NCBI GenBank assembly: GCA_031268615.1
Contig: JAIRWZ010000079.1
Coordinates: 1-11,289, forward strand
From: Actinomycetes bacterium
GTDB lineage: Bacteria; Actinomycetota; Coriobacteriia; WRKU01; WQUG01
Length of the DNA: 11,289 nucleotides
Direction: 5' to 3'
The first letter of the stretch is position 1; each line of letters starts with the position of its first letter. The notes beneath the pieces are model-generated. The model saw only the letters and a list, made by a program, of their open reading frames with translations. It did not search any database and was not told the DNA's origin. Shown in pieces: positions 1,433-9,986 of this stretch. Both the position numbers and the translations under genes were made by a program.

Positions 1433-1454
1433 GGACGCGTGTTATGGAAGCCTT

Positions 1455-1668
1455 TGGTTTTCGCGGACGGGCGTGGGCACAGACCCAGGCGCACTCCCGC
1501 GAACGAAGAGGGAAATCGGTGCAAATCCGATGCAACCCCCGTTGCCGTAATCGGCGAGGGGACGGGAAAGGTACGACACAGACCACTACGCGCATATCCG
1601 CACTGATTGCGCCGGGAAGGTCTCTCGCCCCGCCAGAGCCGTTAGCCGGAAGACCTGCCACAAGGATG
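1455..1668 (+). promoter_or_regulatory. Cobalamin (adenosylcobalamin-type) riboswitch aptamer
   Basis: Conserved elements of the cobalamin riboswitch family appear in order. TTCGCGG (near 1460) and CCGCGAA (near 1496) form an early helix. The core GGGAAATCGGTGCAAATCCG starts at 1510. GCAACCCCCGTTGCCGTAAT follows, in the position of the usual CCCGC-ACTGT segment. The B12 box AGCCGGAAGACCTGCC is at 1644-1659. The aptamer sits on the leader of the five-gene operon starting at 1765. In this family, binding of the B12 cofactor normally lowers expression, so the downstream genes should be switched on when B12 is scarce. The outer ends of the aptamer are approximate. Confidence 0.93.
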
Positions 1669-1710
1669 TTCAGATTCTGTCTTTCGGCGGGAAAGGCTGG
1701 GCTGTCGGAG

Positions 1711-1760
1711 CTCATGGGAAGCAGTTCCCCGTCGCAGACGCGATTGCGATCGGAGGGATT
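1711..1760 (+). promoter_or_regulatory. Possible expression platform and ribosome binding site of the riboswitch
   Basis: The ribosome binding site GGAGGG (1752-1757) lies 7 bases before ATG 1765. Two exclusive pairings are possible. GGGAA (1716-1720) with TTCCC (1725-1729) forms a small hairpin that leaves the site free. Alternatively GTCGCA (1731-1736) with TGCGAT (1745-1750), extended by TCCC (1726-1729) with GGGA (1755-1758), covers it. No T-run suited to a transcription terminator is seen between aptamer and start codon. This points to control of translation, but the structure was worked out by eye. Confidence 0.35.
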
Positions 1761-1764
1761 GCAC

Positions 1765-3702
1765 ATGAAACGAATTGCACATGAGGAACACATCGGCGAA
1801 GAACAAAGCAGGGAAGTGAGTACGCCCAGACCAGCGCGCGCGCGGCGGTATCGCGCCAACGCGTGGCTGATGGTCGGAGCGCTACTGATTTCGACGCTAG
1901 CCGGACCGATAACGGCCGCTTTTGCTGCCACAAAAGATTGGGCGATGTTTCGTGGGGACGCGCGCAACAATGGAGTGACGACAGGCCACACCCCGCGTTC
2001 GGCAACGGAAGTCGTGTCTGCCTGGTCGGACTTGAAAGTGAGTGGTTCATCTGTATCCAGTCCTATTCTTGTTGATGGGACCCTTTATGTTGCCGTGGAC
2101 GATACCTTGCATGAGGTGGATGCGGCGACGGGGGTAATTTTGCGCAGCGCCGCGTTGGACGCAGCAATTGGATTTACGGCGTATTTGGCTGCTGGCGAAG
2201 GAAAAATCTTTGTGCCCATAGGGGGAGGACGCGTACAGTCCTTCGATGCGGCGACGCTGACCTCTCAGTGGACGAGCGCTGAACATACGGGTTTTTCGTC
2301 GGCTGCTGTAGTGACATATCATGAGGGACGGCTCTACACAGGAACCTATAAGTCCTACGACTTCAACGGCAACTCAACTGAGGGCGAGTTCTATTGTCTG
2401 AATGCTGCCGATGGGAAGCAGGTTTGGACGTACTCACCCTCTGTATCCGGAGAAACGACGTTGACCGGGTATAATTGGGCAGGTGCGGCGGTAGCAGACG
2501 ACGCGGAGGTAGTGCTGTTCGCGGGTGATGATGGAGTGTTGGTGTCACACGCGCTGGACAGCGACAGCGTGGTCGCGACAAGGAGTGTTGGGGCGCCGGT
2601 GCGCAGTTCGGTGTTGTTTGATGGTGGCGAAAACCACGCTTATGTAACCACGACGACTGGGAAACTGTATCGCTCCACTTTGACTGGCGCGGGGAGTTTT
2701 GACGCAGATGACCCGCTGACTGCTTGGGCGACTTTGTCCGGGAAGAGTTCCAGTTCTGTCCCAGTCCTATACCGACAACGCCTGTATGTGATTTCCGGTT
2801 TGTCCGAATGGAATTTATACGATGAGCCGGAGACTGGCTGGTTGGATGTCATTGACACGGCGGAAGGGCGACTTATTTCGCGGGCACAATTGCCCGGTTA
2901 TTCGCAGTCTTCCCCTTTGCTGACGACAGGGTATGCAACGTCTGCCAACGGCTATGAAGTCTATCTGTATCTGTTGTTAAATAGTGGTCGTGGCGATGAT
3001 GTTGTTGTGGTGAAAGATAGCGAACAGCTCTCGGCGCTGCAGGTTTCGCAGCTCTATCAGCCGGGCGGCACCAACGCGATGGGCAGTTTGCTGGCTGATG
3101 ATGCCGGACAGCTCTACTTTGTGGACGGTGGCGACTGGAGTGACTGGAACAATCCCGTGCCTGCGAAACTGCGCGCGCTGAAGGTCGGTACTCCTGCGCC
3201 CCCTGCACCCCCTGCGGCTGTTAGCGTGAAGGTAACGCCTGCGAAGAAAACGCTGAATCCGACCAAAACGGTGACCCTGAAGGCAACGGTGACGCCGTCC
3301 GGCGCCTCGCAAAAGGTCAGCTGGTCCTCGTCGGCGAAATCGGTGGCGAAAGTCAACGCGACGACCGGCAAAGTCACGGCGGTGAAACCGGGCAAAGCGA
3401 CCATCACGGCGCGCACGGCCAACGGAAAGGTCGCCCGGACGACCATCACGGTCAAAGCGGGCAAAGTGTCGAAATTCACCGTCAAAGCCCCGAAAACTCT
3501 GAAACGCGGCAAAACGGCGCAGCTGAAAGTCACGCTGAAACCGGCGACCGCCTTTGGCGCAAAGGTGACCTACAAATCTCACTACAAACGCGTTCTGACG
3601 GTCAGCAAAACCGGTAAAATTAAAGCCAGACGTCGCGGCATGGCGACGATTACCATAAAGGCAGGCAACAAGACCAAGAAAATCAGAATCAGAGTGAGGT
3701 AA
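1765..3702 (+). CDS. Secreted PQQ-like beta-propeller protein with bacterial Ig-like (BIG2) domains, first gene of the B12 operon
   Basis: The protein has 645 residues. ATG 1765 is chosen over upstream in-frame codons because these lie inside the riboswitch and because GGAGGG stands 7 bases ahead. GTG 1816 is a possible later start. A basic stretch (PARARRYR) and a hydrophobic segment end in AAFA (about residue 54), a Sec signal peptide. Residues ~58-475 begin WAMFRGDARNNGV, the usual opening of PQQ-type propellers, and carry repeated blade motifs such as GTLYVAVDDTLHEVDAATG, GEFYCLNAADGKQVW and QLYFVDGG. A Pro/Ala linker (~476-485) leads to a BIG2 domain (~486-566, with SVAKVNATTGKVTAVKPGKA) and a second Ig-like domain (~570-645). 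The C-terminus is strongly basic, with no LPXTG or membrane anchor. The role is not proven; its place behind a B12 riboswitch and before an ECF transporter suggests extracellular capture of B12 or a B12 complex. Confidence 0.88.
   Translation: MKRIAHEEHIGEEQSREVSTPRPARARRYRANAWLMVGALLISTLAGPITAAFAATKDWAMFRGDARNNGVTTGHTPRSATEVVSAWSDLKVSGSSVSSPILVDGTLYVAVDDTLHEVDAATGVILRSAALDAAIGFTAYLAAGEGKIFVPIGGGRVQSFDAATLTSQWTSAEHTGFSSAAVVTYHEGRLYTGTYKSYDFNGNSTEGEFYCLNAADGKQVWTYSPSVSGETTLTGYNWAGAAVADDAEVVLFAGDDGVLVSHALDSDSVVATRSVGAPVRSSVLFDGGENHAYVTTTTGKLYRSTLTGAGSFDADDPLTAWATLSGKSSSSVPVLYRQRLYVISGLSEWNLYDEPETGWLDVIDTAEGRLISRAQLPGYSQSSPLLTTGYATSANGYEVYLYLLLNSGRGDDVVVVKDSEQLSALQVSQLYQPGGTNAMGSLLADDAGQLYFVDGGDWSDWNNPVPAKLRALKVGTPAPPAPPAAVSVKVTPAKKTLNPTKTVTLKATVTPSGASQKVSWSSSAKSVAKVNATTGKVTAVKPGKATITARTANGKVARTTITVKAGKVSKFTVKAPKTLKRGKTAQLKVTLKPATAFGAKVTYKSHYKRVLTVSKTGKIKARRRGMATITIKAGNKTKKIRIRVR
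1816..1828 (+). repeat. Dispersed 13-base motif, copy 1 (GTGAGTACGCCCA)
   Basis: Twelve of 13 bases match GTGAGTACGTCCA, and GACCAGC follows as in copy 4. It is preceded by GAA like copies 3 and 5. It falls in frame in the propeller gene (VSTP), where its GTG could act as an alternative start. Confidence 0.6.
2425..2437 (-). repeat. Dispersed 13-base motif, copy 2 (exact, reverse strand)
   Basis: TGGACGTACTCAC on the + strand is the exact reverse complement of GTGAGTACGTCCA. On the minus strand it continues AACCTGC, matching the ACCNGC tail of the other copies. It lies inside the beta-propeller coding region (WTYSP), so the likeness is at the DNA level and not in the protein. Confidence 0.6.
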
Positions 3703-3708
3703 TAAGAA

Positions 3709-3721
3709 GTGAGTACGTCCA
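3709..3721 (+). repeat. Dispersed 13-base motif, copy 3 (exact), forming the lipoprotein start codon
   Basis: GTGAGTACGTCCA is exact here. Its first three bases are the GTG start of the lipoprotein gene, giving an N-terminus MSTS. It is preceded by GAA; the downstream tail ATCAAG differs from the other copies. Confidence 0.6.
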
Positions 3722-4587
3722 ATCAAGAAACTATTGGTATGGTGAACAGCTTTCCGGCGTTACGCGCCGGGAAGCTGCCCCTGCCCGTCACCGTTGTTAC
3801 TGTTCTTATTGCCCTTACGCTTGCGCTGGGCGGTTGTACCCGAAACACCGCAGGTGACCTTGACACCGTCCCGCAACCGACCCGCTCAACAGACGCCAGC
3901 GTTACGGCGTCTGCTCTCACAACTCCATCGGTTGCCACCACGCAAAACCCCGCGGGAACGTCGGCCAATGCAGAGAATCAGTCGGCGCCCTCCACCTCCG
4001 ACCCCGAAACAGCCAAAGACCAGCAGCTCGGTTCTGCAAACTCGCGGGTCAAACCCAAAAAAGACGCGACCGCAAAATCATCGACGTCAAAATCCGGCTC
4101 CGGCGCCACTGGTTCGGGAACGGCGAAATCCGGCTCCAGTTCCGGTTCCGGCTCCAACTCCAGCTCCGGCAACTCCAACTCCAACCCTGCCACTCCTGAC
4201 AAGCCGAGCGAAACCGCACCCCAAACGCTCAACGTCACGATTGCCATTGACTGCAAAACCGCCTACGCCGCCGACCCAACAGCCGTGTCCGGCCTGTCCA
4301 ACAAAGGCGTCATTCTGTCCGCCAAAAAGCTCGAACTGAAACCCGGCGCTACCGTAAAAACAGCGCTGGAATCCTGCGGTATCGACTTCAACGCGCGCGG
4401 CGCGTATGTGTCCACAATCAACGGCCTGTCAGAAGGAGACCTCGGCTCTGGCTCTGGCTGGCTCTATTCAGTCAACGGCGGTTGGCCTTCAACTGGCTAC
4501 AACAAATGCCAGCTGAAAAGCGGCGACAGTGTCTCCTGGCGCTATACCTTAAACCTGGGCAAAGACATAGGGGCGCCCTCCTTTTGA
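3709..4587 (+). CDS. Lipoprotein with transcobalamin-like C-terminal (DUF4430) domain
   Basis: The protein has 292 residues. The start is GTG 3709, six bases after the propeller stop, with GAGG at 3695-3698; ATG 3739 is an alternative with no ribosome site. A hydrophobic segment (PVTVVTVLIALTLAL) ends in the lipobox LGGC, so C43 should be lipidated and the protein anchored outside the cell membrane. Residues ~44-170 are a low-complexity Ser/Thr/Gly/Asn/Lys spacer, including SGSGATGSGTAKSGSSSGSG, which would carry the folded domain through the wall. Residues ~172-290 match the DUF4430 / transcobalamin-like C-terminal family: LNVTIAIDC, LKPGATVKTALE, GSGWLYSVNGGWPSTGY and LKSGDSVSWRYT. Three cysteines (DCK, ESC, NKC) lie in this domain. 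The same fold forms the B12-binding beta domain of animal transcobalamin and intrinsic factor. In a B12-riboswitch operon the likely job is cobalamin capture next to the ECF importer; binding is inferred. Confidence 0.88.
   Translation: MSTSNQETIGMVNSFPALRAGKLPLPVTVVTVLIALTLALGGCTRNTAGDLDTVPQPTRSTDASVTASALTTPSVATTQNPAGTSANAENQSAPSTSDPETAKDQQLGSANSRVKPKKDATAKSSTSKSGSGATGSGTAKSGSSSGSGSNSSSGNSNSNPATPDKPSETAPQTLNVTIAIDCKTAYAADPTAVSGLSNKGVILSAKKLELKPGATVKTALESCGIDFNARGAYVSTINGLSEGDLGSGSGWLYSVNGGWPSTGYNKCQLKSGDSVSWRYTLNLGKDIGAPSF
3747..3777. repeat. Inverted repeat with 13-bp arms inside the lipoprotein signal region
   Basis: CAGCTTTCCGGCG (3747-3759) pairs with CGCCGGGAAGCTG (3765-3777) around TTACG, with one G-U pair. 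It encodes residues 13-23 just before the hydrophobic core of the signal peptide. Its right arm, GGGAAGCTGCCCCT, resembles the right end of the element at 8405-8558 (GGAAAGCTGCCCCT), which suggests an inserted palindromic element. As RNA it would form a strong hairpin near the start of the gene. Confidence 0.5.
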
Positions 4588-5774
4588 CGACGACCCCACA
4601 TACCCCACATACTGCACATACCCCACGTACCGCCGCCAATCCACGCACGGCGACGGACCGGCGCGCGACAATCACGCCAACGCCGCCACCGGACCCCCCG
4701 CTCCATCCGCTCCAACAACGCCCCACGCCCGCCCGTCTCCCGCATTTCGCAGAGCTGCTGCACCCCGGAGCAGTCGCGTGTTGGTTCGCCGCGACCATTG
4801 TAGTCACCATGACGACCCTGCACCCGGCGCTGCTGGCCGCCTCCATCCTCACGGCCGCCGCAACGCTCACCGTCTACGGCTCAACCCGCCAGCTCACCCG
4901 CAGCCTGCGCTTCGCCCTACCGCTGGCCGCAAGCATCATCATCCTGAACGCCGCGTTCAATCACCGTGGCGCCACCACCCTGCTCCGCACCCGGCTCCCC
5001 CTGTCCATTCCAGGCACCTTTCAACTAACGCGGGAATCGCTGACCTTCGGCGCGGCCACCGCCCTGCTTATCTGCGCGACGCTCCTGTGGTTTGCCGTTT
5101 GGCAACTCTTCATCCCCTCGGACAAGTTCCTCTACCTCTTCGGCCGCCTGGCCCCCCGCACGGCACTATTGACCTCGATGATTATCCGCTGGGTACCCCT
5201 GACCGCTGACCGTGCCCGTCAAATTCGCACCGCACAGAAACAATTATGGGTGAGTACGTCCACACCAGCGCCCGTCCCGCACGACCAGCCCACCCATCGC
5301 AGGAAGCCGCACATCATCCGCGCTGCCGCCCGCGCAATCGTCCGTCACCTCGGCGCTCTCCGTACTGCCACCCACGGCGCCGTCCGTCAGGCTGGTGTGT
5401 TGATGTCCTGGTCTGCCGAAGACAGCATTCTGGCTGCGGACTCAATGCGTGCCCGCGCCTATACGCCGGGTCAGCGCCGCAGCTCCTGGCGCAATTACCG
5501 CTTTCGCACTCGTGACGCTCTCTTTCTCGCCGCCACGCTCGTTGCAGCCTCGGCACAGCTTGCCGTTGTCGTAATCTGGCTGCGCCATCTGGCCTGGTAC
5601 CCCATCATCCGGGGCGCAGAGCTGCCCCTCTACGCACTCGTGCCGGCGCTCCTGCTCTTTTCCCTACCCCTGCTGCTGGAAGGAGGCGAATACTTTCGAT
5701 GGATACGCAACAGCCACAACCACAGCCACAGCCACAGCCACAGCCAGCCTGTGCAATCGACGTCCAAAACCTGA
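4584..5774 (+). CDS. ecfT: ECF transporter transmembrane (T, CbiQ-like) component
   Basis: About 396 residues from TTG 4584, whose TTGA overlaps the lipoprotein stop and which has AGGGG at 4569-4573. The only in-frame ATG downstream (4809) would cut into the first membrane helix. Residues ~1-55 are a Pro/Thr/His-rich, low-complexity tail unusual for the family. Hydrophobic segments lie near 60-99, 106-125, 153-176, 314-343 and 347-372. The cytoplasmic part carries coupling-helix features of EcfT proteins: RWVPLTADRARQIRTAQKQLW (~202-222) and AEDSILAADSMRARAY (~278-293), where SMRARAY stands in place of the usual ARG motif that contacts the ATPases. A stretch VSTSTPAPVPHDQPTHRRK between them contains a dispersed repeat. 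The C-terminus is His/Ser-rich (HNHSHSHSHSHS) and overlaps the ATPase gene by 76 bases. It should bridge the ATPase and the S component in the membrane. Confidence 0.87.
   Translation: MTTTPHTPHTAHTPRTAANPRTATDRRATITPTPPPDPPLHPLQQRPTPARLPHFAELLHPGAVACWFAATIVVTMTTLHPALLAASILTAAATLTVYGSTRQLTRSLRFALPLAASIIILNAAFNHRGATTLLRTRLPLSIPGTFQLTRESLTFGAATALLICATLLWFAVWQLFIPSDKFLYLFGRLAPRTALLTSMIIRWVPLTADRARQIRTAQKQLWVSTSTPAPVPHDQPTHRRKPHIIRAAARAIVRHLGALRTATHGAVRQAGVLMSWSAEDSILAADSMRARAYTPGQRRSSWRNYRFRTRDALFLAATLVAASAQLAVVVIWLRHLAWYPIIRGAELPLYALVPALLLFSLPLLLEGGEYFRWIRNSHNHSHSHSHSQPVQSTSKT
4593..4628 (+). repeat. Four tandem 9-bp repeats (ACCCCACAT) at the 5' end of the T-component gene
   Basis: Units at 4593-4601 and 4602-4610 are identical; 4611-4619 (ACTGCACAT) and 4620-4628 (ACCCCACGT) are diverged. 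They encode TPH TPH TAH TPR right after the start. Because the unit is three codons long, gain or loss would only lengthen or shorten the tail. Confidence 0.75.
5250..5262 (+). repeat. Dispersed 13-base motif, copy 4 (exact)
   Basis: GTGAGTACGTCCA, then CACCAGC, sharing the ACCAGC tail with copy 1. In frame it reads VSTS in the cytoplasmic region of the T component, where related proteins usually run on with charged helix residues. An inserted piece is therefore possible. Confidence 0.6.
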
Positions 5775-7612
5775 CCTTCCGCTATCCTGAAAACGCCACC
5801 GCTGCCTTGAATGATGTTTCCTTTACGCTTGCCCACGGCGCTTTTGCGTTGCTGGCCGGCAAAACAGCTTGTGGTAAAACAACGCTCCTGCGTCATCTGA
5901 AACCCCAGCTCACCCCCGTTGGCGACCGCTCCGGCACGGTGACCATCACCGAGCCTGTCGGCTTCGTCATGCAAGACCCCGACGCGCAAATTGTCGCCGA
6001 CACGGTCTATGCTGAACTGGCCTTCGGTCTGGAAAACCTCGGCCTGCCCACGCCGACGATACGCCGCCGTATCGCGGAAGTCGTCGCCTTTTTCGGCCTC
6101 GAATCTCTGCTCGAACGCCACACACAGACCCTGTCCGGCGGCCAAAAACAAATGCTCAACCTCGCCGCCGTCGTAGCGTTGGCGCCCGCGCTCATCATCG
6201 CTGACGAGCCGACCGACCAGCTGGACCCCATCGCAGCCAAGGCCTTCCTGCAGATGTTGACCCGCACGAACACTGAACTGGGCACCACCGTTCTCATCTC
6301 CGAACACCGCCTCGACGAAGTCCTGCCGCTCGTCGATACCGTACTCTATATGAGCAGAAGTGAGTGCGTCCATACCGGCACCCCGCAGGAATTCGTTGAC
6401 TTTCTCATCGCCAGCGATAGCTCCTACCTGTGCGCCTTGCCCGAACCCGCCCGTGCAGCCCTGCCGTTCCTGTCAAACCCACCCTACCCCCTCTCCGTAA
6501 GAGAAGGCCGCCAATGGCTCAACGGGTTTCCCCCTTCGGTCGGTGTCCAATCATCCGGCAATGACACGGTAGGGACACCTCCCAACCCAAAAGAGTCAGC
6601 TGGTGTCCGCCACCCGGCAACAACTGACGGACCGCAATCCGCCTACTCACGCGCGCGTATTGCTGTCCCTACCAATACCCGCCCATCCAGGAACAACAAA
6701 CCTACCATCGACACCACCGCAAGGTCATTCTCGGGCTTGACCCGAGAATCCAGCCTCCCTGCCATTGACTTGCGTGAGGTCACGTTTTGCTATGACCGCA
6801 CGGGTGGCTTTGTCCTCAAACATCTCTCGGGACAGATTGCGGCTGGAGACGTCCACGCCATCGTCGGGGGTAATGGATCGGGCAAGACCACGCTAATTGG
6901 CGTTATCACCGGCACCCTGAAACCACAGCTCGGCAGCGTTCGTATTGCTCCCGGTATGAGCATGGGCGCTCTGCCGCAAAATCCTCGCGCCCTCTTCGAA
7001 CGGGACAACGTGCGTGCTGAACTTTCCGGAACCTCGGACGAACTATTGACTGAACTGGAACTCACTGACTTGCTGGAGCGCCATCCCTATGACCTTTCCG
7101 GTGGCGAAGCGCAAAAAGTTGCCTTGGCAAAACTATTGCTGGCAGACCCCGATATATTGCTGCTGGACGAGCCGACGAAAGGTTTGGACGCACTCGCTAA
7201 AGCGGAACTTGCCGACATTGTGGCACGTCTGTCGCAGCGTGGGCATACCCTGGTCCTCGTGACGCATGATTTGGAATTTGCTGCGGAGCATGCCCATACC
7301 TGCTCGCTTTTGGCTGATGGGGATTTCGTGGCAACCGAAGCGGTGCGTGATTTCTTTGCGGGCAATGAATTTTATACGACGCCGGTCAACCGGATGACGC
7401 GCGGTATGTTGCCCGATTGCATAACCGTCAAAGACCTGCATAACGCTCTGTCGTCCGACAATCCCACTTGTTCCACCGATTTTCCTTATATCCCTATCTC
7501 CACAAGTCATTCCCGCACCCCACCCAGTCATTCCCGCGAAAGCGGGAATCCAGTGCCCCCGGATAATGATGACGTTCAGACTTCCGAATCAAGCCCGAAG
7601 CCGGTACCGTGA
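5699..7612 (+). CDS. ECF transporter ATPase, two ABC domains fused in one chain
   Basis: The protein has 637 residues and powers vitamin import; the fusion supplies both ATPase halves. The start ATG 5699 follows AGGAGG (5681-5686) and lies inside the T-component gene. An N-terminal tail of Gln-Pro repeats comes from the hexanucleotide repeat. Domain 1 (~19-245) has Walker A G54-KTAC-GKT, Q92, signature LSGGQ 145-149, Walker B D169-E170 and H203. Domain 2 (~356-560) has Walker A G390-GNGS-GKT, Q427, signature LSGGE 466-470, Walker B D490-E491 and H523. Both sites therefore look complete, although the domain-1 P-loop (TAC) is unusual. The ~100-residue linker (~255-355) is low in secondary-structure character and is built from an inserted inverted-terminal-repeat element and a palindromic element. 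The C-terminal ~45 residues (SHSRTPPSHSRESGNP) come from another palindrome. It ends in GTGA, shared with the S-component start. Confidence 0.94.
   Translation: MDTQQPQPQPQPQPQPACAIDVQNLTFRYPENATAALNDVSFTLAHGAFALLAGKTACGKTTLLRHLKPQLTPVGDRSGTVTITEPVGFVMQDPDAQIVADTVYAELAFGLENLGLPTPTIRRRIAEVVAFFGLESLLERHTQTLSGGQKQMLNLAAVVALAPALIIADEPTDQLDPIAAKAFLQMLTRTNTELGTTVLISEHRLDEVLPLVDTVLYMSRSECVHTGTPQEFVDFLIASDSSYLCALPEPARAALPFLSNPPYPLSVREGRQWLNGFPPSVGVQSSGNDTVGTPPNPKESAGVRHPATTDGPQSAYSRARIAVPTNTRPSRNNKPTIDTTARSFSGLTRESSLPAIDLREVTFCYDRTGGFVLKHLSGQIAAGDVHAIVGGNGSGKTTLIGVITGTLKPQLGSVRIAPGMSMGALPQNPRALFERDNVRAELSGTSDELLTELELTDLLERHPYDLSGGEAQKVALAKLLLADPDILLLDEPTKGLDALAKAELADIVARLSQRGHTLVLVTHDLEFAAEHAHTCSLLADGDFVATEAVRDFFAGNEFYTTPVNRMTRGMLPDCITVKDLHNALSSDNPTCSTDFPYIPISTSHSRTPPSHSRESGNPVPPDNDDVQTSESSPKPVP
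5709..5744 (+). repeat. Hexanucleotide (CACAGC) tandem repeat translated in two frames
   Basis: Four perfect CACAGC units (5721-5744) follow two imperfect ones (AACAGC, CACAAC). One frame gives HNHSHSHSHS at the end of the T component, the other QPQPQPQPQP at the start of the ATPase. A change in unit number alters both proteins by two residues per unit without a frameshift. Confidence 0.85.
6360..6372 (+). repeat. Dispersed 13-base motif, copy 5 (GTGAGTGCGTCCA)
   Basis: Twelve of 13 bases match, preceded by GAA and followed by TACCGGC like the other copies. Here it is read in a different frame (SECVHTG in the ATPase), so the likeness cannot be due to a shared peptide. Confidence 0.55.
6568..6673. 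mobile_element. MITE-like element with 10-bp perfect terminal inverted repeats inside the ATPase linker
   Basis: GGTAGGGACA (6568-6577) and TGTCCCTACC (6664-6673) are exact reverse complements bounding 106 bp. The interior contains GTCCGCCACCCGGCAA and GCAATCCGCC, which also occur in the same order in the intergenic element at 8405-8558. No coding capacity is present, so mobility would need a transposase from elsewhere. It is read through in the ATPase frame (about residues 290-325) without a stop. No clear target-site duplication was identified. Confidence 0.6.
6723..6753 (+). repeat. Dispersed palindromic element (copy 2), in frame in the ATPase linker
   Basis: ATTCTCGGG (6727-6735) and CCCGAGAAT (6741-6749) are perfect 9-bp arms around CTTGA, with GGTC before and CCAG after. 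It translates as SFSGLTRESS, a typical product of this palindrome type, immediately before the second ABC domain. Confidence 0.75.
7506..7553 (+). repeat. Dispersed palindromic element (copy 3) with a preceding half copy, in the ATPase C-terminus
   Basis: ATTCCCGC (7530-7537) and GCGGGAAT (7542-7549) pair around GAAA. GTCATTCCCGC occurs twice in a row, at 7506-7516 and 7527-7537, so a half element precedes the full one. The translation SHSRESGNP is characteristic of this repeat type wherever it lies in genes. Confidence 0.75.
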
Positions 7613-8370
7613 ACCGTGTTCTTCGCATTCTGGAGCCGACCGCGCTCTTTGCTTGCCCTTTTCTGTTGGCAGCCCTGACTGTCGCGCGCGTTGGGTCGGC
7701 GGCGCTGCTCTCTGCACTTGTGTTGTTGGTGGCCTTGGCGCCGGCCATTGTTGGTTTTGAACGGGCGCGTCCGCGTCCGCGCGACTTCATGCCCGTGGTG
7801 GTTCTGGCGGCTCTGGCTATTGCCGGGCGACTGCTCTTCGACGCCATTCCCAACTTTCAACCCACCACTGCTCTTATCATCGTCTGCGGTTTTGTATTTG
7901 GCCGACGCGCGGGATTGATGGCGGGCATTACCGCGGCGCTCGTGTCCAATCTGTTCCTGGGGCAGGGGCTTTGGACGCCATGGCAAATGTATTGCTGGGG
8001 AACGGTAGGCTACTGTGCAGGCCTGTTCCCCCCAACTCTCCAGGTTCGTCATGCCGGGCTTGACCCAGCACCTCAGACCAGCGAGCCAGGGAGACGTTCG
8101 GATTCCGGCCCAAAGGTCGGAATGGCAATCCCGATGTATCTGTATGGGGTTGTCGCGTCTCTGGCTTTTGGCGTCCTGATGGACCTGCAATACTTTGTGG
8201 GCTTCAATGCGGACACCGGTCTGTCCGGTCTGGCTACAACTTTGGCGCTGGGTCTGCCGTTCAATGTGGCGCACGCGGCTTCAACCCTCGTATTCCTTGT
8301 CCTGACCCTGAACCCCTGGGGCAAAAAACTAACCCGCCTGAAAACCAAGTACGGTCTGCAGGACCTGTAA
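7609..8370 (+). CDS. cbrT: ECF transporter substrate-binding S component, probably for cobalamin (CbrT-like)
   Basis: The protein has 253 residues from GTG 7609, whose GTGA overlaps the ATPase stop, so translation is probably coupled. It is very hydrophobic, with helices near 11-27, 31-50, 61-79, 86-97, 101-120, 125-140, 175-192 and 205-235. This is somewhat more than the usual six, so some of these probably form one helix or a loop. FGRRAGLMAGITAALVSNLFLGQGLWTPWQMYCW is typical of the S-component group annotated as cobalamin-type CbrT, including the small-residue face (AGITAALVS) that packs on the T component. It should bind the vitamin in the membrane and be turned over by the ECF module. 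The B12 riboswitch upstream supports the substrate. Residues ~141-172 (VRHAGLDPAPQTSEPGRRSD) are an unusual polar insertion made of palindromic repeat DNA between two helices. Specificity is inferred. Confidence 0.86.
   Translation: MNRVLRILEPTALFACPFLLAALTVARVGSAALLSALVLLVALAPAIVGFERARPRPRDFMPVVVLAALAIAGRLLFDAIPNFQPTTALIIVCGFVFGRRAGLMAGITAALVSNLFLGQGLWTPWQMYCWGTVGYCAGLFPPTLQVRHAGLDPAPQTSEPGRRSDSGPKVGMAIPMYLYGVVASLAFGVLMDLQYFVGFNADTGLSGLATTLALGLPFNVAHAASTLVFLVLTLNPWGKKLTRLKTKYGLQDL
8047..8123. repeat. Two degenerate palindromic elements in the S-component gene (copies 4 and 5)
   Basis: CGTCATGCCGGGCTTGACCC (8047-8066) followed by AGCACCTCAG is a slightly decayed copy of the 6723 element (TGCCGGG against CCCAGCA, one mismatch). 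ATTCCGG (8102-8108) and TCGGAAT (8117-8123) form a second palindrome that, on the minus strand, resembles the 7530 element. Together they encode the extra loop of the S component without breaking the frame. Confidence 0.6.
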
Positions 8371-8614: not shown

Positions 8615-9955
8615 ATGCTTGACGCAAAATTTATACGTGACAATCCTGACGCTATTCGCACGGCGATGAGCGCTCGCGGCAGCGCTTGGGACACCGATGA
8701 GTTTCTGGCGCTGGACGAGCGTCGGCGTGAACTCATTGCGCAGACCGAAGCTCTGCAGGCCCGGCGCAACGAACTGTCGCGCAGTATCGGTACGCTGCTG
8801 AAAGACCACCATACACAGGCTGTCGCGGACGCCAAGGCCGAAGTCGCCCTCATAAAGGACAGCCTCACCGTACTGGACGCTGACAGGGACCGGCTGGATA
8901 CCCAAACTCACGAGCTGCTGTCTACCGCCCCCAACCTGCCCGACGCCTCCGTCCCACTCGGCGTTGACGAACATGACAACGTCGAGGTCAAACGCTGGGG
9001 AACGCCCCGCGATTTCAGCGCCGAAGGCTTTGAGCCGAAAGCTCACTGGGATTTGGGGCCGGCTCTGGGGATTATCGACTTTGAGCGCGCCGTGAAATTG
9101 GCAGAATCCCGTTTCGTGCTGTTGGGTGGCGCGGGTGCGCAGCTGGAACGCGCGCTCATTAACTTCATGCTTGACCTGCATGCGGACGCTGGGTTTAAGG
9201 AGTGGTGGCCGCCAACGCTTGCCAACGCCCAGACCTTGTATGGCACCGGACAGTTGCCGAAATTTGCCGACGACCTCTACCAAACGGTTACGACTTCCGA
9301 CGCCAACGAAGGCATGGAATCCGGCGGCGAAGCCACAACCGCCGGCCGGCTCTACCTGACGCCGACCGCCGAAGTCACGCTCACCAACATTCACCGCGGC
9401 GAGGTCTTGAACGCGGACAGCCTGCCCCGCCACTACACGGCCTACACCGCCTGTTTTCGCGAAGAAGCCGGTAGCGCCGGGCGCGACACCCGCGGCATGA
9501 TTCGTATCCACCAGTTCGACAAAGTCGAGCTGGTCAAACTCACGACTCCGGAGACCAGCTTTAACGAACTGGAATCCATGACCTGCCAGGGAGAAAAGGT
9601 GTTAGAAATCCTCGGCTTGCCCTATCGTCGCCTGGCGCTCTGCACGGGCGACCTGGGCTTCGGCGCCGCCAAAACCTACGATTTGGAAGTCTGGCTGCCC
9701 TCCTACAACGACTATAAAGAAATCTCGTCTTGCTCGAACTGCGTGGATTTCCAGGCTCGGCGAGCCGGTATCAAATACCGCGACCCGGACGCCTTCAAAG
9801 GCAGCCGCTACCTGCACACGCTGAATGGTAGCGCTCTGGCGCTCAGCCGCACCTTCGCCGCGATTATCGAAAACTATCAAAATCCCGACGGCACGGTCAC
9901 CGTCCCCGAAGCCCTGCGCCCCTACCTCCGGGGCTTAAAAACAATCACGAAGTGA
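8615..9955 (+). CDS. serS: Seryl-tRNA synthetase
   Basis: The enzyme has 446 residues, a normal length for bacterial SerRS. In the cytoplasm it joins serine to tRNA-Ser using ATP. ATG 8615 is chosen because MLDAKFIRDNPDAIR is the standard N-terminus and GAGG stands at 8605-8608. The frame is open further upstream, but that part translates repeat DNA. Residues ~25-105 form the charged coiled-coil arm that grips tRNA-Ser (RRRELIAQTEALQARRNELS). The class II core follows: motif 2 with F281-R282-EEAGSAGRDTRGMIRIHQF and motif 3 with NGSALALSRT (404-413, R412). FGAAKTYDLEVWLPSYNDY and EISSCSNCVDFQARR are family signatures. The stop codon lies inside an inverted repeat shared with the convergent gene. 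It has its own promoter and is probably not part of the B12 operon. Confidence 0.98.
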   Translation: MLDAKFIRDNPDAIRTAMSARGSAWDTDEFLALDERRRELIAQTEALQARRNELSRSIGTLLKDHHTQAVADAKAEVALIKDSLTVLDADRDRLDTQTHELLSTAPNLPDASVPLGVDEHDNVEVKRWGTPRDFSAEGFEPKAHWDLGPALGIIDFERAVKLAESRFVLLGGAGAQLERALINFMLDLHADAGFKEWWPPTLANAQTLYGTGQLPKFADDLYQTVTTSDANEGMESGGEATTAGRLYLTPTAEVTLTNIHRGEVLNADSLPRHYTAYTACFREEAGSAGRDTRGMIRIHQFDKVELVKLTTPETSFNELESMTCQGEKVLEILGLPYRRLALCTGDLGFGAAKTYDLEVWLPSYNDYKEISSCSNCVDFQARRAGIKYRDPDAFKGSRYLHTLNGSALALSRTFAAIIENYQNPDGTVTVPEALRPYLRGLKTITK

Positions 9956-9986
9956 GTATTGAGCCTGCCCCCGGCTCAGTACTCAC
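9952..9986. terminator. Inverted repeat between convergent genes, candidate bidirectional terminator
   Basis: GTGAGTATTGAGCC (9952-9965) pairs with GGCTCAGTACTCAC (9973-9986) over 14 bp with one G-U pair and loop TGCCCCC. The serS stop (9953-9955) and the amidohydrolase stop (9983-9985) both lie within its arms, and TTCTTAT follows on the + strand. Left arm and loop are an exact copy, reversed, of 1386-1412, so this is a repeat element used at the ends of two genes. Confidence 0.6.

Follow-up and report, generated by a model that had tools for sequence, protein, structure and literature searches.

Energy-coupling factor (ECF) transporters are taught as needing only a membrane S component to catch their vitamin. 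Here we analyze an 11,289-nucleotide stretch of DNA from a member of the Coriobacteriia (contig JAIRWZ010000079.1 of assembly GCA_031268615.1; the whole stretch is referred to as the window, and the genome it belongs to as the host), in which a cobalamin riboswitch precedes five genes. These encode a putatively exported propeller protein (the front protein), a putative DUF4430 lipoprotein, and the T, double-ATPase (A-A) and S components of an ECF importer. We propose, with a probability of roughly three in four, that this operon serves the acquisition of cobamides (vitamin B12), with capture at the cell surface handed over to an importer of the ECF-CbrT kind.

Closest Described Systems

Bacterial SLBB (DUF4430) proteins were predicted by Burroughs et al. 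(2007) to scavenge B12, and were described as fused to toroids or to a propeller and encoded with CbiO/CbiQ-like genes (PMC1796856). The first-pass annotation of the window, which knew of no described system with this gene set, is superseded in that respect by the 2007 prediction. Shared with the operon studied here are the DUF4430 domain, the toroid or propeller partners, putative signal peptides, the genes for an ECF-type ATPase and a T component, and the predicted scavenging of B12. Whereas those SLBB proteins were mainly from low-GC Gram-positive bacteria and planctomycetes, the present operon set is found in Coriobacteriia too. Furthermore, the relevant sections of the 2007 account treat the extra domains as tethers and mention neither a riboswitch nor an S component (PMC1796856); in contrast, a putative CbrT-type S component and a cobalamin riboswitch belong to the operon here, and its front genes encode a propeller or a toroid in a mutually exclusive manner. 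Among the open-licence papers listed, none ties DUF4430 to CbrT-type S components and cobalamin riboswitches, describes an exclusive choice between propeller and toroid, or reports a B12-binding test of these proteins, although preprints, subscription papers, or papers beyond those listed could do so. Likewise, the propeller-DUF4430-ECF system was not found in the portions of four further papers that bear on the subject (PMC6593275, PMC2667541, PMC3766115, and PMC13398666).

Two characterized systems are also close. The ECF-CbrT transporter transports cobalamin and cobinamide, has T, A, and CbrT-group S components in common with the operon, and has its cbrT gene in an nrdJ-cbrS-cbrT-pduO cluster (PMC5997447), whereas here a dedicated A-A fusion and a T component share an operon with S and two exported proteins. 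In the BtuG-BtuB system of Bacteroides, an exported beta-propeller is similarly encoded with B12 uptake genes (PMC6143338, PMC10404256). BtuG is a seven-bladed propeller that has been reported only from Bacteroidetes (PMC6143338) and has an outer membrane partner, whereas the propeller here is of the PQQ/BamB/YxaL kind with eight blades by strand count, and no TonB-dependent receptor such as BtuB was present among the eight window genes scanned. The earlier description of the operon as a Gram-positive counterpart of the Bacteroides B12 capture machine is apt as an analogy but probably does not extend to the propeller itself, which appears to differ in family and blade number.

The Operon and Its Importer

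The coordinates of the operon are given in table 1. The riboswitch matches its family model over the full length (positions 1-189 of 189), against a gathering score of 31.5 bits, and stands where the first-pass annotation had placed it, ahead of the five genes. The aptamer ends 88 bases before the first gene, and since no predicted terminator-like site falls in the interval from 1676 to 1765, the riboswitch probably acts at translation. An ATG preceded by a GGAGGG site (read by eye) was taken as the start of the front gene; a start at 1363, the frame of which runs back through the riboswitch, was set aside. The front and DUF4430 genes are separated by 6 bases (an alternative start of the DUF4430 gene is possible at 3739), and the DUF4430-T, T-A, and A-S pairs overlap by 4, 76, and 4 bases, exactly as first annotated. 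The identities then assigned to the five products were likewise confirmed by domain matches, in the case of T through its relatives.

Table 1. Features of the operon, with positions in the window
Feature	Position	Strand	Basis and remarks
Cobalamin riboswitch aptamer with B12 box	1438..1676	+	RF00174, 86.6 bits, E 9.9e-21
Front protein, 645 aa	1765..3702	+	signal peptide by eye; PQQ/BamB-type beta-propeller (about residues 58-455); Ig-like Big_2/Big-like domains
DUF4430 lipoprotein	3709..4587	+	Pfam PF14478, 48.9 bits (cut-off 23.8); lipobox by eye; family alignments
ECF T component	4584..5774	+	TTG start; CbiQ family through relatives
ECF double ATPase (A-A fusion)	5699..7612	+	two ABC_tran stretches
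ECF S component, assigned to the CbrT group	7609..8370	+	GTG start; phmmer and profile matches to 6fnp

Searched with phmmer against the PDB, the S component of the window has a sole match at E up to 1, namely 6fnp (E 4.7e-8). A profile built from 25 S proteins matches 6fnp at 1.2e-21, 4hzu at 2.6e-5, and RibU (3p5n) at 0.0056, with no others at E<=1. We take 6fnp, the record of which reads 'Membrane protein', to be the S component of ECF-CbrT, and 4hzu to be of the FolT type. Based on these comparisons, the window S groups with the B12 component CbrT, well ahead of FolT and RibU, which agrees with the CbrT-type assignment first made and not with another vitamin family. Riboflavin, to which the Pfam and NCBIfam names point, was rejected as the substrate because RibU falls far behind CbrT in the profile search.

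The A protein contains two ABC_tran stretches (154.6 bits); in NCBIfam it comes closest to ECF ATPases, at scores under their curated cut-offs. The window T has no Pfam match of its own. CbiQ is matched by all three T proteins of relatives that were scanned (26.7-32.2 bits, cut-off 25); one of these, from locus L045, is matched by the window T at E 4e-32, and identity to the closest relatives is 32-38%.

A substrate other than cobalamin itself, whether cobinamide, another cobamide, or a tetrapyrrole such as heme, seems to us quite improbable. Cobinamide is also moved by CbrT (PMC5997447), an ECF system for heme exists (PMC7299338), and the Pfam matches of the window S are DUF6580 and the riboflavin S family (ECF-ribofla_trS). 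These points are opposed by the cobalamin riboswitches on the operon and on its relatives, by CbrT being by far the nearest solved S component, and by the B12 enzymes of the host.

Conservation of the Gene Set

Three sets of genomes were used. An S search of 59 genomes including the host gave 30 matches, and the first set consists of the neighbourhoods of the 29 non-host matches together with a host contig that bears a second riboswitch. Named genomes yielded at least 571 relatives of S, and the 80 nearest to the window S were fetched as a second set, which shares some contigs with the first. The third set comprises 148 genomes of the class, drawn evenly and at least 90% complete except for the host. 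By their S component, the nearest named relatives are metagenome-assembled genomes of Coriobacteriia, presumably from termite guts, judging by the look of their isolate codes.

Among the 80 nearest S loci, A is present in 79, T in 75, the DUF4430 gene in 64, and a front gene in 51 (one of which, L118, is a partial propeller). All four accompany S in 50 of the 80, which answers the question, raised in the first-pass annotation, of whether the set is conserved together elsewhere. The gene set recurs in Coriobacteriia and Clostridia, and the loci include those of cultured Slackia, Gordonibacter, Eggerthella, Adlercreutzia, Olsenella, Dorea, and Cuneatibacter. Because an identical gene order recurs in independent genomes, the operon is not a product of chance; it is real and conserved, and very probably a B12 uptake system, one that looks widespread and modular.

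Riboswitches accompany many of these relatives. A covariance model built from nine riboswitches (R1) gave 41 matches in the 80 loci at E<=1, of which 33 have E<=0.01. All 41 have the orientation of the operon, and four are in records from which riboswitches for the model itself were taken. In 40 cases the match lies within about 540 bases ahead of the stop-to-stop frame of the first gene or overlaps its 5' part (for L143, the frame of the front gene was used), and the remaining match, in L107, is 5.7 kb off. A contig edge cuts 18 of the 80 loci at the first gene. In the 62 uncut loci, R1 matches at the place of the first gene in 25 of 34 with a propeller (L143 counted as a miss), in 7 of 7 with a toroid, and in 7 of 21 with no front gene; matches at E<=0.01 anywhere in the locus number 23, 4, and 6, respectively. 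At Rfam gathering scores, a cobalamin-family riboswitch is found in 11 of the 29 first-set neighbourhoods (L034, L035, L040, L041, L044, L045, L050, L054, and L060-L062), and in one (L099) of seven second-set loci scanned that had no R1 match.

Possible Exchange of Propeller and Toroid

The front gene encodes a propeller in 40 of the 80 loci, an alpha/alpha toroid in 11, both in none, and neither in 29 (Fisher one-sided p 2e-4, ignoring kinship). The uncut loci divide into 34 with a propeller, 7 with a toroid, and 21 with neither (p 0.0024, again ignoring kinship), although at least two of these 21 (L067 and L091) start less than 240 bases from a contig end and are effectively cut. A third kind of front gene was considered and set aside: by eye, the upstream open reading frames in 19 of the 29 loci without a front gene, and in L118, resembled either the usual neighbouring genes or spurious frames.

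When a quick tree was made of 60 S proteins (89 rows less the 29 with neither kind), the propeller/toroid label was found to change at least nine times, and at least four changes are forced by well-supported branches; 25 of the 57 inner branches are weak. The label is clustered on the tree, as shuffling gave a mean of 13.6 changes and none of 500 shuffles gave a count as low. Both kinds occur in the window's own family, with propellers in L034, L035, and L050 and toroids in L060-L062.

These observations lead us to suggest, tentatively and at slightly less than even odds, that in Gram-positive gut bacteria the toroid of transcobalamin-type carriers and the unrelated eight-bladed propeller have repeatedly replaced each other in the same operon position as an extracellular cobamide-binding cup that, with DUF4430 as its lid, feeds the ECF importer. 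The exchange argues that the propeller is a binding module. If this is correct, then Bacteroides evolved a propeller cup for B12 (BtuG) independently, and many gut Actinomycetota and Clostridia add to the ECF importer a surface relay built from the parts of animal B12 carriers, which would bear on the competition for B12 in the gut and on the origin of transcobalamin. The prediction of 2007 also becomes testable with two small soluble domains.

Structure of the Exported Proteins

Pfam matches of the front protein are Big_2 (81 bits) and a PQQ_2 propeller (44 bits), and a propeller profile covers residues 58-455 with 304.8 bits. The propeller blocks of its AlphaFold2 model mostly have pLDDT of 90 or above, and the strand count and nearest folds of the model suggest eight blades. 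Those nearest folds are PQQ dehydrogenases and BamB according to Foldseek, and YxaL and BamB according to VIA-align. BtuG is not among the best 50 VIA-align rows, an absence that excludes nothing, and a library of viral structures returned generic propellers only. Some relatives have giant front proteins, with stop-to-stop frames of up to about 2,400 aa (e.g., L047:1514-7171, L153:3814-10803, and L165:2958-10247), that combine a propeller with repeats of DUF4430 and, in many cases, an extended N-terminal region lacking a match to the family models; a Pfam scan of the one from L047 left this region without a match as well.

The lipoprotein carries its DUF4430 domain (SLBB, like the C-terminal domain of transcobalamin) together with a long Ser/Gly/Thr-rich linker, and its lipobox (LALGGC), like the signal peptide of the front protein, was recognized by eye. 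LPXTG-like tails are seen in relatives, also by eye, with Gram_pos_anchor scoring 19.8 bits against a cut-off of 20 in one of them. DUF4430 is a domain found at the C-terminus of animal B12 carriers (PMC4350170). A direct sequence link to transcobalamin was sought with a whole-protein profile and discarded, the signal being swamped by the low-complexity linker.

A model of the relatives' toroid was built with 15 sequences (pLDDT 91). Its first three Foldseek ranks are rat and other transcobalamins (E 4.9e-5 to 2.6e-4, TM 0.52-0.55, rmsd 6-9 A, 14-16% identity), and terpene cyclases come next, from E 3.2e-4. The sequence profile of the toroid retrieves squalene-cyclase-type chains, and no transcobalamin is named among the 43 PDB sequences at E<=1. 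The combination of toroid and DUF4430, split over two genes or fused, is the two-domain make-up of animal B12 carriers such as transcobalamin and intrinsic factor, and occurs in relatives including L041, L044, and L060-L062. In contrast, no toroid match was found at E up to 1e-10 in the host genome, which is 62% complete.

Front Genes Away from the Importer

Within the third set, S is found in 82 of the 148 genomes, a propeller at E<=1e-10 in 56 (strong in 52), and a toroid in 15. Of the 82 genomes with S (host included), 49 have a strong propeller, as against 3 of the 66 without S (p 1e-13, ignoring kinship). In 21 of the 52 cases, the window's among them, the strong propeller is on the strand of S and no more than 8 kb away from it; of the 15 toroids, 8 are within 8 kb of S and the other 7 elsewhere. 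A separate DUF4430 gene adjoins 28 of the 31 unlinked propellers, and no strong linked front gene is present in the 31 genomes that have an unlinked propeller. Riboswitches upstream of the unlinked propellers were sought with R1 at E<=0.1 for all 31 and at the Rfam gathering score for 23 of them; by R1, 4 of the 7 unlinked toroids have a riboswitch upstream. In two genomes without an S match (L172 and L173), a gene that joins DUF4430 to a propeller lies close to a raiA RNA, and no separate DUF4430 gene was found adjoining that gene.

Since surface proteins frequently contain propellers of the PQQ type and Ig domains, and since the front/DUF4430 pair often lies apart from the importer genes, one might suppose that the exported proteins are surface proteins that share the operon and are unrelated to uptake. 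We consider this very improbable, given that strong propellers go with S as described above, that a separate cobalamin riboswitch precedes 7 of the 31 unlinked propellers, and that DUF4430 is shared with the animal B12 carriers (PMC4350170).

Proposed Mechanism and Its Weighing

In the mechanism that we propose, the riboswitch would let the operon be expressed when cellular adenosylcobalamin is low, as expected from its family. At the cell surface, cobamides would then be captured by the propeller protein, which is exported, and by the DUF4430 lipoprotein, which is tethered to the membrane. The latter, held on a flexible linker, would pass the ligand to the CbrT-type S component, and S would deliver it through T and the A-A motor, which would drive import. 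The first and last of these steps are suggested by the families of the components, whereas the middle steps are suggested by linkage, regulation, and the exchange of propeller and toroid. Ligand binding by the propeller and the lipoprotein, the direction of the hand-over, and the exact cobamide are inferences. The idea that the operon adds an extracellular relay to an ECF importer, already put forward in the first-pass annotation, keeps its conserved gene set and its CbrT-type S component, with B12 binding and the hand-over as the conjectural parts.

Several observations weigh against this mechanism. There is no front gene at the first position in 21 of the 62 uncut loci, and 20 of the 82 genomes with S yielded no front gene of either kind. 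In fold, the propeller comes closest to PQQ enzymes and cell-envelope scaffolds, and the best 50 rows of Foldseek and of VIA-align contain no B12 protein. Of the 52 strong propellers, 31 have no S within 8 kb, and a riboswitch was found upstream of only 7 of these 31. In three genomes (G031, G041, and G143) a weak, partial propeller match adjoins S while a strong one lies elsewhere, and two others (G105 and G132) contain an unlinked toroid as well as an unlinked propeller, so that the exclusion is not absolute per genome. The DUF4430 domain profile matches transcobalamin-2 at E 0.72 only; the link between the two therefore rests on Pfam membership and on what the pertinent part of PMC4350170 states. 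Finally, the best 50 VIA-align rows for the toroid are terpene cyclases and sugar enzymes, with no transcobalamin; given this disagreement with Foldseek, the toroid fold is secure and a special kinship to transcobalamin is not.

Some of the same facts would fit a structural role, in which the propeller is a tether or scaffold that places the DUF4430 lipoprotein in the cell wall and DUF4430 (elsewhere with the toroid) is the only part to touch B12. A tether role for the extra extracellular domains was proposed by Burroughs et al. (2007), as far as the cited part goes (PMC1796856). Furthermore, the propeller's nearest folds include BamB and the mycobacterial Rv3035-FecB complex, and an Rv3035 orthologue was found as a partner of the lipoprotein FecB in cell-envelope assembly (PMC12802301, in the part concerned). 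Many propeller proteins carry DUF4430 repeats that could themselves bind the ligand, and the 21 uncut loci without a front gene suggest that it may be dispensable, or may lie elsewhere in the genome. Nevertheless, one would expect a propeller that only tethers to be found alongside the toroid, and the two are never together at the first-gene position (0 of 80). The at least nine label changes on the S tree, at least four of them forced, would be expected if one replaces the other in its job. We therefore regard the tether as unlikely, though the least so of the alternatives considered, and favor capture of cobamides at the surface.

B12 Metabolism of the Host

The operon contig (C10) is part of a 1.07-Mb genome in 157 contigs. 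This genome encodes the B12-dependent NrdJ (724 bits), a MetH-type protein, and a partial cobalamin adenosyltransferase, and there is a second B12-binding match on contig C89. A second cobalamin riboswitch (97 bits) is located on contig C19 (L063:2741-2957), directly ahead of nrdD (NRDD, 482 bits). The product of nrdD is the class III, B12-independent ribonucleotide reductase, and a riboswitch before this gene is the usual pattern in a B12 user. No corrin-synthesis genes were recognised in two family searches of the host genome at its 62% completeness. Those searches gave two GATase_3 matches (33.9 and 28.3 bits, cut-off 27) and one TP_methylase match in a frame of 277 aa, which, partly judging by length, are probably of the GatD/PdxT/HisH and RsmI types.

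Repeats in and around the Operon

The host genome contains 20 exact copies of a dispersed palindromic repeat (TCATTCYCG..CGRGAATCCAG), whereas a backward control gave none. Two copies are in the window (6725-6753 and 7528-7553), and 18 more are elsewhere in the genome. Both window copies lie within the frame of the ECF ATPase and are translated, near stretches that are absent from six relatives; the repeats thus appear to be tolerated as protein segments. A 17-base repeat of the AGAAGTGAGTACGTCCA type occurs four times in or between the operon genes, at window positions 1812, 3705, 5246, and 6356. In addition, a 28-base inverted pair with 100% complementarity (1386-1413 and 9949-9976) flanks the operon together with serS.

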